11,204 nucleotides of DNA, taken from contig JAKPQU010000411.1 in assembly GCA_029555925.1 (NCBI GenBank), forward strand, positions 1 to 11,204, given 5' to 3'. This document shows positions 4,930 to 11,130 of the stretch, in pieces (the first letter of the stretch is position 1; each line of letters begins with the position of its first letter). The position numbers and the translations under genes were made by a program. The DNA comes from Bacillota bacterium. GTDB lineage: Bacteria; Eremiobacterota; SpSt-956; JAKJGF01. Below the pieces are notes generated by a model. The model saw only the letters and a list, made by a program, of their open reading frames with translations. It had not been told where the DNA came from and searched no databases.

Positions 4930-5571
4930 ATGGATAGCTTAAAGACAGCTTCGCCGTACAATCTTTCATATAATAACATCATAAATACGCAGATCGCTCA
5001 ACCTAAAGTTCCTTTTAAGTCCATTACTCCCCCTGACGGTCAGGAAACAACAGCACCCAAAGACAGCACCTTATCTAAAGAAGATTTGAAAAAAGCAAGA
5101 TTGAAGTCCCTTACAACTGCACAGGACAAGGTGATGAACAACAAAAGATTTAAACCACACGACGGGAAAACCTTCTGTAACGAAGGATTAAATTCTACGT
5201 TAAAACAACTTGGTGTTCCTGTGGAAGAAGCAGGAGTTGCCCATAAAAGCGGATGTGCTCTTACGGCAAATGTTATAGCAAAAAACCTGGCAGCTTCCGC
5301 AAAAGAAGAAAAAGGTTACTGGATTGAAGTAGATCCGAAAAAAGCCCAGGAATATGCAAATAACGGACTCCCTGTAGTGGGTACACAGGTAAATAAAAAA
5401 GGGCACGGACATGTATCAACAGTTCGTCCAGGTTATGAACCATCTGACGATCCTATGATAAATAATATAGGGGGAACTAATAAAGTAATGAGAGAGAGTA
5501 ATTCTTTTTCCAGTAAAGTTCCCGTGCATTATTATGTAGCAAGAAATGAAGCAAATAGTATAAATCTATAA
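4930..5571 (+). CDS. Putative NlpC/P60-like Cys/His hydrolase
   Basis: This 213-residue protein has a hydrophilic N-terminal arm (1-70) rich in Pro, Thr and Lys, followed by what looks like a papain-fold cysteine hydrolase: DGKTFCNEGLN with candidate nucleophile Cys83, then YANNGLPVVGTQ, then GHGHVSTVRPG with candidate base His161 (or His159), then NNIGGTN and a closing HYYVAR strand. This order resembles peptidoglycan amidases and peptidases of the NlpC/P60 group, where a GHGHV-V-PG strand is common. The family assignment rests on these motifs alone. No signal peptide or membrane helix is visible, so it would stay in the cytoplasm unless released by lysis or a secretion machine; phage lysin, injected effector and housekeeping roles all remain open. 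The start is secure: GAAAGAAGGG lies 8 nt before the ATG. It is transcribed from a perfect promoter and followed by a hairpin-forming array. Confidence 0.75.
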   Translation: MDSLKTASPYNLSYNNIINTQIAQPKVPFKSITPPDGQETTAPKDSTLSKEDLKKARLKSLTTAQDKVMNNKRFKPHDGKTFCNEGLNSTLKQLGVPVEEAGVAHKSGCALTANVIAKNLAASAKEEKGYWIEVDPKKAQEYANNGLPVVGTQVNKKGHGHVSTVRPGYEPSDDPMINNIGGTNKVMRESNSFSSKVPVHYYVARNEANSINL

Positions 5572-5644: not shown

Positions 5645-7006
5645 ATGAATAAAATATTAATTTTAACAGATGAATTTTTTAATACTATAAGTCCTGTTTC
5701 TTATTTAAACGGCTATCTTCACGAATCCGGTAAAAAAGCAGATGAATTTGTAATAGATGAACTTACTGATTTCAAAGAATTGTTTGCACTGGCCGAGAGT
5801 TATGAAATTATCGGTCTCAGCAGCTGGGGCCATGACAGGAAAGAAATTCTGGATTTATTATTTAACCTGAGAAAAAACGGGAAAACCACTGTCATAGGCG
5901 GCCCCGGCATAATAGAAGAACAAAAACATTTTACCCATACAGTATCAGGGCCAGGTGAATATTTTCTTCTTGACCTTTTAAATGGTAAAAAACTTCCTCC
6001 TTTTTACAGAGAAACTAAAGAGCCACCTTATAAATTTAAACTCACAGATTTTTCACTCATGAAATTGCCTTCAATGGATAACAATATATCAGTTTCCGTG
6101 AGAACTTTTGATGGATGTTACTGGGGAAAATGTTATTTCTGTACGTACAATCAAAATTATCCTAACAGCCTGACCGGCCTTGATGAAAAAAAAGCTTCTA
6201 TGATAAGTAATACTCTTGATGAGATAGTAAACAATATAAAAGAAATAAAAAGTCATATGGAAGTCACCTTCTATATGTCCCATGCTAGTATTAATGAAAA
6301 AAATCTTGACTACTTACTCGAAGCTATAAAAAAATCTGAGAAAAATTTCAAATGGGTAACCTTTATAAGACCTGAACCGTGGGTAATAAAATACCTGAAA
6401 GATATTCGCAACCTTAACGGAATACTGGATATAGGATATGAATTTATATGTAATAGAGATCTTATCAATAAAGGCTGTATTCCTGAACATGAAATTAGAG
6501 TGTCTCTGGAAGCATTCAAAGAACAGGTTCCTGTTAAAGGAAATTTCCTTTATTGTATACCGGAAGCAGAAGAGAGAGAACTAATAGAATGTGCTGTTAA
6601 TATAGGGAGAATAAGGCACTGTTTTTCTTCTTTCGTGCTGGGCCAGTTATTTATAGAAAAGGAAACAGAATTTTATAGAAAAAAAGAAGATTTTCATATT
6701 ATATGCCATGATGACATAATTGATTATGGAAGATCCGCCGGCGAAAATTATATGCCTCATTTTGAAGACTATTCGGGTTTCCGTACTGTAAAAGACTACA
6801 ACCTATTTATAGAACATAATAAAAAATTTGCCATGGCTGTAGCGGAAATTATGGAGACAGAAATTTCCTCCTGGGAAGATCCGATTGATATAGAAGTAGT
6901 ACTCCCCCCTCTGGATAAAGAAAAAGTCTATAAGATTCTGACTGAATATTTTGACGATAAAGATTTTATAAAAAAATCTATTGATAGTTCCTGGCGTATC
7001 TCTTAA
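5645..7006 (+). CDS. B12-binding-type radical SAM protein, 3' end altered
   Basis: This 453-residue protein has an N-terminal Rossmann-like region (about 1-115) resembling the B12-binding domain of class B radical SAM enzymes: YEIIGLSSWG, TTVIGGPG (81-88) and SGPGEYF (101-107). The DxHxxG cobalamin-ligand motif is absent. The radical SAM core follows, with cluster motif GCYWGKCYFC (Cys158, Cys163, Cys166), a Cx4Cx2C spacing rather than the standard Cx3Cx2C; I recall similar GCxWgxCxFC motifs in some B12-type and RiPP-associated members. Cluster binding and SAM cleavage are expected; the substrate cannot be read. The ATG at 5645 abuts a heptamer array and has no Shine-Dalgarno. The stop is new: an 88-bp tandem duplication places TAA after ...SWRIS, and the second copy shows the older end, ...SWRIS followed by SGQSKNSE and a stop at 7116-7118, giving 461 residues. 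Losing eight C-terminal residues is probably tolerated. Confidence 0.9.
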   Translation: MNKILILTDEFFNTISPVSYLNGYLHESGKKADEFVIDELTDFKELFALAESYEIIGLSSWGHDRKEILDLLFNLRKNGKTTVIGGPGIIEEQKHFTHTVSGPGEYFLLDLLNGKKLPPFYRETKEPPYKFKLTDFSLMKLPSMDNNISVSVRTFDGCYWGKCYFCTYNQNYPNSLTGLDEKKASMISNTLDEIVNNIKEIKSHMEVTFYMSHASINEKNLDYLLEAIKKSEKNFKWVTFIRPEPWVIKYLKDIRNLNGILDIGYEFICNRDLINKGCIPEHEIRVSLEAFKEQVPVKGNFLYCIPEAEERELIECAVNIGRIRHCFSSFVLGQLFIEKETEFYRKKEDFHIICHDDIIDYGRSAGENYMPHFEDYSGFRTVKDYNLFIEHNKKFAMAVAEIMETEISSWEDPIDIEVVLPPLDKEKVYKILTEYFDDKDFIKKSIDSSWRIS

Positions 7007-7841: not shown

Positions 7842-8456
7842 GACAAAGCTTTTTATTAAAATGAGAAAAGGAGCGAACATACTCTTCTAGAAGTGATTTT
7901 CCTTTTTCTTTTGCTTTCTACATATATAATCGGCAAAAAACAAATGGCGTGGAGGCTGAAAATAAGAGAAAAAAGGCTTAATTTAATTTTCACCGAACCT
8001 AGTCCGGCAGGGCAGTTTCCGGTTATAAATAATATAAGTCTATAGATAGTAACAGTTCTTTTTTATAAGCCTGAATTCAGGCATTTTACGGGTAAGGCAG
8101 GATAGCTTCTGTTAAACGGGGCAGATGAGAAAAAAACAATGGAACTATTACCTGCAGACTTCAGGTTCTCCGCTTTATTAATGTTTTTTTGACTGTTCTG
8201 CTTTTTACGACTGTCTTTTCTACAGAGTAGAATAGCTTTATTTTCATCATTCCATAGAACTATAAAAGAGCAAAGAATATGGAAAAATTTGATGAGATTG
8301 TTATAGTTCTAACAGATGATAATATTATATATCTATAGTTATCCGGAAAAATCCATGTAAAAATTTTCAATTAAGAGGAAATAAGGAATAATTAACAGAG
8401 AATTAATAAAAATTAAACCTTTTTTAGAGAGTGGTAGTTCTATGGGATTATTAAAA
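7842..8456. other. Long intergenic region without a gene
   Basis: I find no coding frame with plausible protein features and no tRNA-like fold. Visible structure: a perfect 14-base palindrome GCCTGAATTCAGGC (8069-8082); a small hairpin TTCTAC/GTAGAA (8218-8232); AGAACTATAA (8256-8265) with its complement TTATAGTTCT (8301-8310); and TAGTTCTATGG (8435-8445), complementary to bases around 8253-8263. TTTTAGAGAGTG (8422-8433) repeats the copy at 1209-1220. A small RNA or the remains of an element are possible. Confidence 0.5.
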
Positions 8457-8615
8457 AGTGAATGGTGAGTAGTGAGTGGTTAGTGGTGAAGACAAACTTT
8501 CACTGACTTTATAGTTTAATTCATAATTTATTAGAATTTAATTAGCGTGAACAGTGAAAAGTGAAAAAAATAGGACATTGCTTACTATTCACTTTTCACT
8601 TTTCACTATTTACTC
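8457..8615. repeat. Composite heptamer arrays and 19-bp element at vault gene 3' end
   Basis: AGTGAAT, GGTGAGT, AGTGAGT, GGTTAGT and GGTGAAG occupy 8457-8491. A 19-bp element follows at 8510-8528, then 18 nt, then GTGAACA, GTGAAAA, GTGAAAA (8547-8567), a 20-nt centre, and complementary heptamers TTCACTT, TTCACTT, TTCACTA, TTTACTC (8588-8615). AGTGAAAAGTGAA (8553-8565) pairs perfectly with TTCACTTTTCACT (8588-8600) as a 13-bp stem, a possible terminator for the vault gene, whose TGA stop (8614-8616) lies in the last heptamer. Confidence 0.88.
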
Positions 8616-11073
8616 ACTGTTTCAGAATATCCTCTAAGGGAGTGCCTCTGAGTAAATTTGAGAATACTTCAGAAATACTCTTTCCTCCGATAATTGCAAG
8701 AGGTGCCATGGTTTCTGCCATTTTTTCCGCCAGATGTTTATCAGAGAATGCCTGAAGTGCTGCAATAAGTTCGGGAGATACAGCTCCTGCTTTGGCAACT
8801 ACTGCATCAACTTCTGCTTTCACCTCGGCAAGTTTCTGATGAAGTGCTTTTTCTGCCAGATAAAGTTCCTGTTCCCGTTCCAGTTTATGTCTTTCCAGTT
8901 CTGCTTTTGATATATCGGAAAGTTTATCCTGCTGTGCAAGTTTTGCAGACAATCTGCTGTCTTCCGTATGAATTTCGGAAGCAATCTGAGTGAGGGCAAG
9001 TTCCAGATTCTTTTTAACCTCTTCTATTTCCAGTGCCAGCCCTTTCTGAGTTGTTTCAGCCTGTGCCTGGGCAATTTGCTGTTTGATTATCTCCGTTTCC
9101 CGCGTAATTTCAAGTTTTCTGTGTTCCTGGGCAATCTGTATGGCCTGCTGGACAGAAGTATGCTGTGCCTGTACCAGAAGTCCTGAAATGGTACTGTCAC
9201 CTATTGTTACATCCAGTATCTCCACATCATAAACCCTCATGCCGTTTTCATCAAAGGCTCTTCCGGGACGTTTGCCTCCGTCGGCAACACCCAGAATGGT
9301 ATCGCGAATAATACTGATGGCATTGGCATAAAATTCTTCAATCCCCTTCTGCTTGACTATATTTCTGATCAATGACCTCATATGGTCAGTAAGGAATTTG
9401 ACATAATTTTCCACGTTAAACCATTTATCAGGATTACCTTCAAAATTTACCCTGTATGAAACATGGACTTTTACCTGACATAGATCCTTTGTTTCTGCCG
9501 TAACAACATCAGATACTTTATTATTCAAAACCCTTAAATAAACTGTTTTAAATAAATTATTATCAGATTTCGGCGTTCCAGTGGAAAGTTCCATATATTC
9601 AAGGTTTTCATCATATTCAAGAAGACAGGCCTGAGGGCCTACCATAACCTTTCTCTCCCCTGTTTTACTTACTACTAACACTGCATAGCCTGTCCAGATA
9701 TTTATTGTAACAGCACCTTCATATTTCGTATCGAGTGTTATAGTTCTTGGTTGACTGAAGGTCTGCTTTCTTGTAAAGTCATCTCCCGCAAAAGCTTCTT
9801 TTGCCTTTTCTCTTCGTGTATCTCTGGCTTCGGCCATGGCCTCGAGTTTTTTCTGAGGAGCAAAACTGTCTAAAGCTTCTTTATCTGTTACATAATCAGC
9901 TTTAATCTTGCTGGTAATCTCCATGAGCCTGCGGTTATATTCCAGAGCTTCAGCATTTCCCGGAAACATAAGCCTTACAGCTTTCTCATCCAGAACTCTT
10001 CTTACAATGACTTCTTTTCTCGGATCAGGAAGAAACATACAGGGGCCTCTTTTAAGAGAAATTTCTCCGTTCAATCTGTTAAGTACATATCTTGCTTCTC
10101 CTGCAGGTATGGCAACAGCATAGTGTCTCTCATGGTCGCTGTATTTTATAACAGCATGTTCAGGTCTCGGGAAATAGATCATCTGATCTTTACCTGTTAT
10201 AAAAAGCTCTTCCCCGACTTTACGTTCTGTCCCGTCCTCTTCTTTATAAGGTGCAATGACCTTTATATAGAGGCCGATTATTTCATTTAATTCAATGGCT
10301 TTGAATTTCCTGGAACCATTTTTTTCCACAAAAATCTCAGTAGGTTTCGGAAACACTACGGCAGGTCCCTGAATAAAACGTTTATTCCCGTCTTCATCAA
10401 GTAAAATACAGTATTCAAGCCTTTCCAGAGTGACTGCTTCACGGACATATTTTCCGTTGCTGTCTCTTACCACTTCAATACCTGTAGGAGGCATATAGAA
10501 AGACACGTCAGTACCTTTAATAACAAGCTGTTTACCTATGGTCAAATCGGGAATTTCCGTATCCAGTTTTGCACCTTCTGAAGTATCGGTAGAACTGCCT
10601 TTCTGCGGTTTTATAACAGCCTTTGCCCAGTTTTCCCTGGCAGCTTCTTCATTATATACCCTTACGACAAGATACTGGTTGGAGCGAAGATGATGTCCCT
10701 GAATAACATGGGCAACCTGGCCCGGCCAGAGGGGAAATGTTACGGGCCCGGGAATATTTACCTTGCACCCTGAAATCAATTTCGGTAAACTGTTTGGTCC
10801 GCTTCTCGGATGTTCTTCATCTCCTCCTTTTGCAGGATTTTCAAGGACTATATACCATCCTTCCTCTGCAAAAGGATACTGTGTTATTGCTTCCTCAAGG
10901 TTACACCTTTTATACTTTCTCGAAGAAGCATCAAAAATTACAGGTCTGTCCGTATTGGCAAGACTCGTCTTGTGAGGCCCCACATAGGCAATAACATTAC
11001 CTTTTGTCTCATCCAGAATAAAAGCATATTCATTGGGGGCAAGCACCAGATCTCTTTCACGGCCTTCTGCCAT
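8614..11073 (-). CDS. Major vault protein (MVP) homologue
   Basis: This 819-residue cytoplasmic protein matches the plan of MVP, which in eukaryotes forms the barrel of the vault particle from dozens of copies. Residues 1 to about 500 hold vault-type repeats: LAPNEYAFILDETKGNVIAYVGP near the N terminus (8-33, written with gaps in the family), and repeated GP-x-F-P turns at IQGPAVVFPKPTE (235), KRGPCMFLPDP (341) and VMVGPQACLLEYDE (477). Residues about 505-640 are a shoulder domain of SPFH/stomatin-like fold (YLRVLNNKVSD, VHVSYRVNFEG). Residues about 640-765 are a long Gln/Glu/Lys/Ala-rich helix corresponding to the cap helix, and a C-terminal GGKSISEVFSNLL segment would be the cap ring. Length is close to eukaryotic MVP (about 860-890). 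GGGAGAGG at 6 nt supports the start. No other vault component is visible here. Family is confident from overall architecture; particle assembly is inference. Confidence 0.88.
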   Translation of the reverse strand: MAEGRERDLVLAPNEYAFILDETKGNVIAYVGPHKTSLANTDRPVIFDASSRKYKRCNLEEAITQYPFAEEGWYIVLENPAKGGDEEHPRSGPNSLPKLISGCKVNIPGPVTFPLWPGQVAHVIQGHHLRSNQYLVVRVYNEEAARENWAKAVIKPQKGSSTDTSEGAKLDTEIPDLTIGKQLVIKGTDVSFYMPPTGIEVVRDSNGKYVREAVTLERLEYCILLDEDGNKRFIQGPAVVFPKPTEIFVEKNGSRKFKAIELNEIIGLYIKVIAPYKEEDGTERKVGEELFITGKDQMIYFPRPEHAVIKYSDHERHYAVAIPAGEARYVLNRLNGEISLKRGPCMFLPDPRKEVIVRRVLDEKAVRLMFPGNAEALEYNRRLMEITSKIKADYVTDKEALDSFAPQKKLEAMAEARDTRREKAKEAFAGDDFTRKQTFSQPRTITLDTKYEGAVTINIWTGYAVLVVSKTGERKVMVGPQACLLEYDENLEYMELSTGTPKSDNNLFKTVYLRVLNNKVSDVVTAETKDLCQVKVHVSYRVNFEGNPDKWFNVENYVKFLTDHMRSLIRNIVKQKGIEEFYANAISIIRDTILGVADGGKRPGRAFDENGMRVYDVEILDVTIGDSTISGLLVQAQHTSVQQAIQIAQEHRKLEITRETEIIKQQIAQAQAETTQKGLALEIEEVKKNLELALTQIASEIHTEDSRLSAKLAQQDKLSDISKAELERHKLEREQELYLAEKALHQKLAEVKAEVDAVVAKAGAVSPELIAALQAFSDKHLAEKMAETMAPLAIIGGKSISEVFSNLLRGTPLEDILKQ

Positions 11074-11079
11074 GATAAT

Positions 11080-11087
11080 CCTCTCCC
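11080..11087 (-). promoter_or_regulatory. Strong ribosome binding site of the vault gene
   Basis: GGGAGAGG on the minus strand, 6 nt before the ATG at 11073, contrasts with the array-adjacent genes that lack one. Upstream, TATAAA near 11130 could be a -10 box but no convincing -35 accompanies it. Confidence 0.6.
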
Positions 11088-11130
11088 TTCTTTTTTATGT
11101 TCACGTTTTTATCAATCCTTCTGTATTTTT

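Follow-up and report, generated by a model that had tools for sequence, protein, structure and literature searches.

An 11,204-nucleotide contig (JAKPQU010000411.1 of assembly GCA_029555925.1, deposited as Bacillota bacterium and placed by GTDB in the Eremiobacterota), called the window when the whole stretch is meant, encodes a bacterial major vault protein (MVP), and sequence, domain order and predicted fold together establish that this MVP is genuine. MVP is best known from eukaryotes, whose vault is among the largest particles of the cell and is of unknown function. A first-pass annotation of this DNA had read an apparently complete bacterial MVP homologue here; the observation is confirmed and its interpretation supported. 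The open reading frame lies exactly at 8614–11073 on the minus strand and runs for 819 amino acids from ATG to TGA with no internal stop. A Shine-Dalgarno-like site, AAGGGAGAGG, lies six bases 5′ of the ATG. Against the 85%-identical copy in L001, the closest locus compared (titled Bacillota bacterium), the nonsynonymous substitution rate (dN) is 0.096 and the synonymous rate (dS) 1.33, which suggests that purifying selection acts on it. The features discussed below are these:

8614..11073, minus strand: bacterial MVP coding sequence (open reading frame, Pfam, profile and fold matches)
9988..11073, minus strand: N-terminal vault-repeat region, residues 1–362, with an inferred six or so repeat-like units (its fold matches the vault wall and an R1–R7 fragment)
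9739..9993, minus strand: helical, partly low-confidence insert, residues 361–445 (structure model, profile alignment)
9535..9669, minus strand: last repeat ahead of the shoulder, Vault_3, residues 469–513 (Pfam)
9196..9525, minus strand: SPFH-like shoulder, MVP_shoulder, residues 517–626 (Pfam, 98.7 bits; predicted local distance difference test score, pLDDT, about 90)
8788..9195, minus strand: cap helix, residues 627–762, one continuous predicted helix along which confidence drops (structure model)
8617..8787, minus strand: C-terminal cap segment, residues 763–819, low confidence (structure model, profile)
11080..11089, minus strand: Shine-Dalgarno-like AAGGGAGAGG (read from the sequence)
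8547..8613, no strand: inverted repeat with arms 8547–8567 and 8593–8613, 90% complementary, adjoining the MVP stop codon; possibly a transcript end or a dispersed repeat

The identification is well beyond chance. The domain assignments rest on Pfam matches above the family cut-offs: MVP_shoulder (PF11978) scores 98.7 bits over residues 517–626 (cut-off 25), Vault_3 scores 31.3 bits over residues 469–513 (cut-off 28.8), and Band_7 scores 25.3 bits over residues 513–673. The Vault repeat model reaches 13.5 bits, under its cut-off, and the protein matches no NCBIfam family at E≤0.01 and no PHROGs family. In an alignment (A1) of the window protein with 22 homologues, MVP_shoulder is found in 23 of 23 and Vault_3 in 23 of 23 (E≤1), and the Vault repeat model in 9.

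The fold was modelled with AlphaFold from a 93-sequence alignment that includes phage MVPs (pLDDT 75.4); a first model from 23 close sequences was poor (pLDDT 50.5) and was discarded. The comparison with the rat vault that the first-pass annotation had proposed comes out in favour of MVP, in that the model matches the vault wall and the order of repeats, shoulder and cap helix is kept, at 20–24% identity to vertebrate MVP in the structure alignments. Those with a root-mean-square deviation of 4.8–5.7 begin at vault chain residues 105–219, three with a deviation of 13.0–16.6 begin at residues 5–43, and an R1–R7 vault fragment matches residues 3–516. All sequence-level matches in the PDB are MVP, and a sequence profile alignment runs through the cap helix to residue 813 of the vertebrate chain. 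Tandem MVP repeats are present ahead of the shoulder, and the repeat-segment profiles of the N-terminal region are related to one another, weakly, and lend weak support to a count of about seven units. The repeats, SPFH-like shoulder and cap helix read by the first-pass annotation thus stand; the C-terminal cap segment is present, but is modelled at low confidence, with helices at residues 780–795, 800–807 and 813–818 (pLDDT about 40–57) and a profile match that stops near the start of the segment.

Eukaryotic MVPs (rat 4hl8 and 4v60, human 9bw5 and 9mxj, rabbit 9z4w) resemble the window protein in having vault repeats, an SPFH-like shoulder, a long cap helix and a C-terminal segment in the same order. 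Their PDB chains comprise 861–893 residues (934 in 6bp7) against 819 in the window protein. Using vertebrate repeat boundaries that we take to be correct, we infer about seven repeats in the window MVP, together with a helical insert of some 80 residues (361–445) ahead of the last repeat that is unlike eukaryotic MVP and, judging by the profile alignment, exceeds the residue count of the vertebrate chain at that place. Vertebrate MVP has nine repeats according to passages in PMC13347060 and PMC7618893; the comparisons appear to favour about seven units over nine, a detail in which the window MVP differs from the first-pass text. Repeats, shoulder and cap helix would pack side to side to give a hollow vault-like shell or half-shell, and we think it probable that the window MVP forms one. 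This shell is perhaps shorter than the eukaryotic vault, a hollow particle of 78 subunits, because about seven repeats seem to be present.

The first-pass annotation held that MVP has only scattered bacterial homologues. They are instead numerous: of 7,998 candidates that were scored, at least 6,503 reach E≤1e-3. The bacterial MVP family is large and common, and the window gene is an ordinary member of it. Bacterial MVP is an already known kind of protein, because PMC7916137 notes putative homologues and, in the passage concerned, leaves their origin open. The best match among those listed is 97% identical and annotated Candidatus Eremiobacterota. We compared 43 loci from bacterial genomes, which by record titles and partly by tree labels belong to Eremiobacterota, Riflebacteria, Wallbacteria, Bacteroidota, Myxococcota, Chloroflexota, Spirochaetota, Nitrospirota, deltaproteobacteria and others. 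Of the 43 genomes behind these loci, 42 contain PF11978, while none of 14 control genomes does. In the phylum of G001 (the nearest genome compared) 7 of 98 genomes have it, and in the order of G017 33 of 241 (32 above cut-off); a plasmid search gave no MVP match. Other bacterial MVPs (of Riflebacteria, Wallbacteria, Bacteroidota, Myxococcota, Leptospiraceae and others) are homologous over their full length, mostly at 52–97% identity, and differ by ordinary sequence divergence. We built a tree from a sample of the bacterial and phage relatives found (93 rows, 90 of them different). In it the window protein is sister to P0003 within a 28-row clade with Eremiobacterota/Xenobia, Wallbacteria and other rows. 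A copy from a magnetotactic Nitrospirota (L036) nests inside the same clade, suggesting gene transfer.

MVP is also encoded on phage genomes. Scanning IMG/VR with the window protein and three phage MVPs gave 117 loci (L044–L053 and L061–L167), many of them fetched twice; with L038 these make 118, which reduce to 58 unique loci, 57 of them from IMG/VR, and simple gene calling recovered the MVP frame in 55 of the 58. L038, a contig of a metagenome-assembled genome titled Bacilli, shares the phage MVP gene cluster and is therefore likely to be phage itself; a second MVP place is found in its genome, G038. The huge-phage records LR756500, LR756501 and LR756503 match MVP, the last two being identical in length and positions, and LR756500 and LR756501 hold full-length frames of 827 and 809 residues. 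Phage MVPs are homologous to the window protein across most or all of their length, at 39–52% identity. One IMG/VR phage contig of 402,311 bases (L094/L132) has MVP twice, at about 184 kb and about 397 kb, and on two phage contigs (L051/L092 and L050) MVP is split into two frames, of 338+478 and 251+524 residues. A vault protein in a prokaryotic mobile element has a parallel in the predicted vault-like proteins of Borgs, extrachromosomal elements of methane-oxidising archaea, which we liken to the window MVP by their description in PMC12660748 and not by sequence.

Many phage MVPs, unlike the window MVP as far as its neighbours are in view, lie within clusters of RNA-repair and NAD/ADP-ribose genes. 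Counted over the 58 loci, whose flanks differ in length, and with each cluster annotated from one or two of its members, the recurrent neighbour clusters are calcineurin-like phosphoesterases (32, 23 and 22 loci), a polynucleotide-kinase-like P-loop protein (30), the nucleotidyltransferase RlaP (24), an RNA ligase (23) and a second ligase type (13; a PHROG RNA ligase, below the Pfam cut-off), DNA gyrase B (16), Thg1 (14), a DUF2828/DUF7788 protein (14), cREC (9), NADAR (8), a flotillin-like Band_7 protein (8) and an isochorismatase-fold protein (7). In L083, RlaP, phosphoesterase, Thg1 and RNA ligase clusters stand ahead of MVP, and SIR2, NAMPT/NAPRTase, NAD synthase, NADAR and a cytidylyltransferase-like protein follow it; Pfam matched no macro domain there. 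The 462-kb phage record LR756500 has a gene with a PARP catalytic domain (L176:4517-5791, 1.6e-21) about 6 kb from MVP, and also a macro-domain gene right at cut-off. We considered the DUF2828/DUF7788 protein as a TROVE protein and set that reading aside, since the von Willebrand-like stretch alone aligned (probability 61). Jumbo phages with RNA repair are known, from a source (PMC7824862) whose relevant passages do not use the word "vault", and in the literature on prokaryotic and phage vaults and RNA repair, where other reports may exist, we found nothing on a phage MVP.

The proximity of these genes to MVP was tested on 30 viral MVP-bearing contigs of >100 kb (G371–G400); the comparison is drawn from MVP-bearing contigs alone, clustering in phages that lack MVP being no part of it, and the p values are too small, as the remaining contigs are partly related. 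PF09414 matches in 25 of the 30, and after exclusion of frames of >600 residues, taken as DNA ligases, 22 contigs have an RNA ligase. In 18 of these the ligase is no more than 10 kb from MVP, versus 2.9 expected from random MVP positions (0 of 100,000 draws reached 18), and in 17 of 21, with 2.8 expected, when one near-copy (G393/G394) is removed (again 0 of 100,000 draws). NADAR is present in 8 of the 30 contigs and lies within 10 kb of MVP in 5 of them (1.0 expected, p 0.001; 4 of 6 without near-copies, 0.8 expected, p 0.0035); within 12 kb, a limit picked after the distances were known, it is 6 of 8 (1.2 expected, p 0.0004). The contigs have the look of phage, in that 15 of the 30 give a strong large-terminase match (E≤1e-12), although this family also matches in 11 of 14 named bacterial or archaeal controls, presumably in prophages. 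In-frame TAG codons occur in 13 of the 15 terminase frames; one of these also has TGA and TAA, and G394 and G398 are near-copies. This points to stop codons being recoded in late genes, whereas all 31 MVP places have none. The terminase being apparently recoded and the MVP places free of such codons, MVP therefore belongs with the standard-code genes.

In cellular genomes we examined co-occurrence in the order of G017 (Bacteroidota; locus L017 is titled Microscillaceae), with counts that are uncorrected for ancestry. Its 241 genomes hold MVP in 33, PARP (PF00644) in 33, TROVE in 54 and DUF4062 in 51. PARP is found in 19 of the 33 MVP genomes versus 14 of 208 others (Fisher two-sided p 4e-11), or 18 of 32 versus 13 of 209 when rows below the cut-off are dropped. 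TROVE shows a weak association with MVP, at 12 of 33 (7.4 expected) versus 42 of 208 (one-sided p 0.037, two-sided 0.045), and MVP, PARP and TROVE occur together in 11 of the 241 genomes versus 1.0 expected. PARP is found in 6 of the 44 MVP genomes searched across all groups, and TROVE in 8 of 41 MVP genomes; some genomes of other bacterial MVPs have both. The PARP match lies about 28 kb from MVP in G019, where other genes intervene, and about 33 kb in G217. We scanned three cellular PARPs of this order, two of which come from MVP genomes, and all three carry a WGR domain at the front.

The eukaryotic vault has the partners TEP1 (with TROVE and DUF4062), PARP4 and vault RNA, whereas the window MVP has no known partner. 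According to PMC13174449, the eukaryotic particle holds TEP1 with NADase activity, PARP4 and RNA, and binds ADP-ribose in a pocket of the shoulder. Because of the phage RNA-repair and NAD/ADP-ribose clusters, the PARP co-occurrence in one order, and the TROVE, NADase and PARP partners and ADP-ribose-binding shoulder of the eukaryotic vault, we tentatively propose by analogy that the shell may serve, in times of stress, as a chamber or scaffold for damaged RNA and for enzymes that handle NAD+ and ADP-ribose. A wider version, which we hold to be somewhat doubtful, is that an old role of prokaryotic and phage MVP shells would be to hold RNA-repair and NAD+/ADP-ribose enzymes under tRNA or NAD+ attack; in large phages the shell, together with genes for RNA ligase, kinase, phosphatase, RlaP, Thg1, NADAR and PARP-like proteins, would act as a counter-defence, and the eukaryotic vault would carry this theme on in its content of RNA, TROVE, NADase and PARP. 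Taken as a whole, a genuine MVP that forms a shell and possibly an RNA-repair/NAD scaffold is our best explanation, and our confidence in it is evenly balanced.

Several observations weigh against this explanation. The cap and the insert are modelled at low confidence. Phage MVPs (23 rows of the tree) and cellular MVPs form separate clades, with a support of 100 in the Shimodaira–Hasegawa-like approximate likelihood ratio test, and their function may therefore differ. The PARP tree, built from the phage PARP and 15 PARPs of the G017 order (11 of the 19 that occur with MVP and 4 of the 14 that occur without it), is poorly resolved and needs just two label changes, so few independent events may underlie the co-occurrence. 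In three of the five genomes with PARP and MVP on the same contig (G225, G174 and G158) the two are nevertheless 0.13 to 2.4 Mb apart. DUF4062, which is the NADase domain of TEP1, tends if anything to be less frequent where MVP is present (3 of 33, 7.0 expected, versus 48 of 208; p 0.07), and as an MVP partner it is unsupported. None of the seven MVP genomes in the phylum of G001 has PARP, and G001 itself has no TROVE or PARP match (DUF4062 was not searched there). No neighbour cluster occurs in more than 5 of the 43 bacterial loci, and the open reading frames and Pfam matches of the window, which covers 131 bases upstream of the MVP gene, include no RNA-repair, NAD or PARP neighbour. The first-pass remark that no companion vault protein is visible holds within the window, to the limit of those 131 upstream bases.

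A different reading is that MVP forms a general shell for stress or storage that has no specific partners, the phage clusters having nothing to do with its role in bacteria. We regard it as somewhat doubtful: it agrees with the lack of a recurrent neighbour in the cellular loci, with a distribution that is patchy (7 of 98 genomes in the phylum of G001, 33 of 241 in the order of G017) and with the missing TROVE and PARP of the nearest genome, but many residues are strongly conserved over phyla and phages, which suggests specific contacts, and PARP co-occurs with MVP in one order. A membrane-attached SPFH cage, or half-vault, which as in flotillin, HflK/C and erlin would organise membrane patches and would not be a free vault, is unlikely. 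The shoulder fold is common to flotillin, stomatin, prohibitin and HflK/C, and the match to these proteins starts at about residue 440; however, they lack vault repeats, whereas in the window MVP about 500 residues of repeats precede the shoulder, and no membrane anchor is modelled directly ahead of the SPFH domain, the N-terminus being beta strands (no membrane predictor was run). The Vault_3 match, the repeat fold match and PDB sequence matches that are all to MVP set the protein apart from unrelated SPFH proteins, the placement against which the first-pass annotation had wanted its reading checked. Recent acquisition of the gene from a eukaryote, or eukaryotic contamination, would fit where MVP is best known and the prokaryotic origin left open in that passage of PMC7916137, but is highly improbable given relatives at 62–97% identity in bacterial assemblies of several phyla, the nesting of the window protein among Eremiobacterota/Xenobia and other bacterial proteins in the bacterial and phage tree, two neighbouring genes syntenic in L001, and a match to vertebrate MVP that is merely 20–24% identical in structure alignments.

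With an intact and widespread bacterial MVP, deletion, purification and imaging of the shell come within reach in simple systems. From the phage gene clusters comes a concrete hypothesis, RNA repair and NAD+/ADP-ribose handling, which is open to test in laboratory strains and fits recent work on the eukaryotic vault (PMC13174449).

In the bacterial loci sampled there is no conserved partner gene beside MVP, because the top neighbour cluster comprises five loci and its positions vary. In the later version of the clustering (L001–L043 without L038) this unannotated cluster is the only one besides MVP that reaches at least four loci; the first clustering additionally gave one four-locus cluster, three of whose loci (L004, L009 and L011) are of one lineage. 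RNA ligases and end-healing enzymes are not among the recurrent neighbours of cellular MVPs in the 43 loci. The remaining open reading frames of the window encode, by Pfam, a kinase, an NtrC-type regulator and a CHASE4 histidine kinase, and further a B12/radical-SAM-like protein (NCBIfam, below family cut-offs) and two proteins without a convincing family. The B12/radical-SAM-like gene (5645–7006) and an unassigned gene for 213 amino acids (4930–5571) adjoin MVP in L001 too, with products 61% and 56% identical, a two-gene synteny that is due to close kinship. The window has no tRNA and no Rfam match at the gathering score. On the 3′ side of the MVP stop codon, positions 8449–8613 hold short GTGAAAAGTGAAAA-type repeats and inverted repeats.
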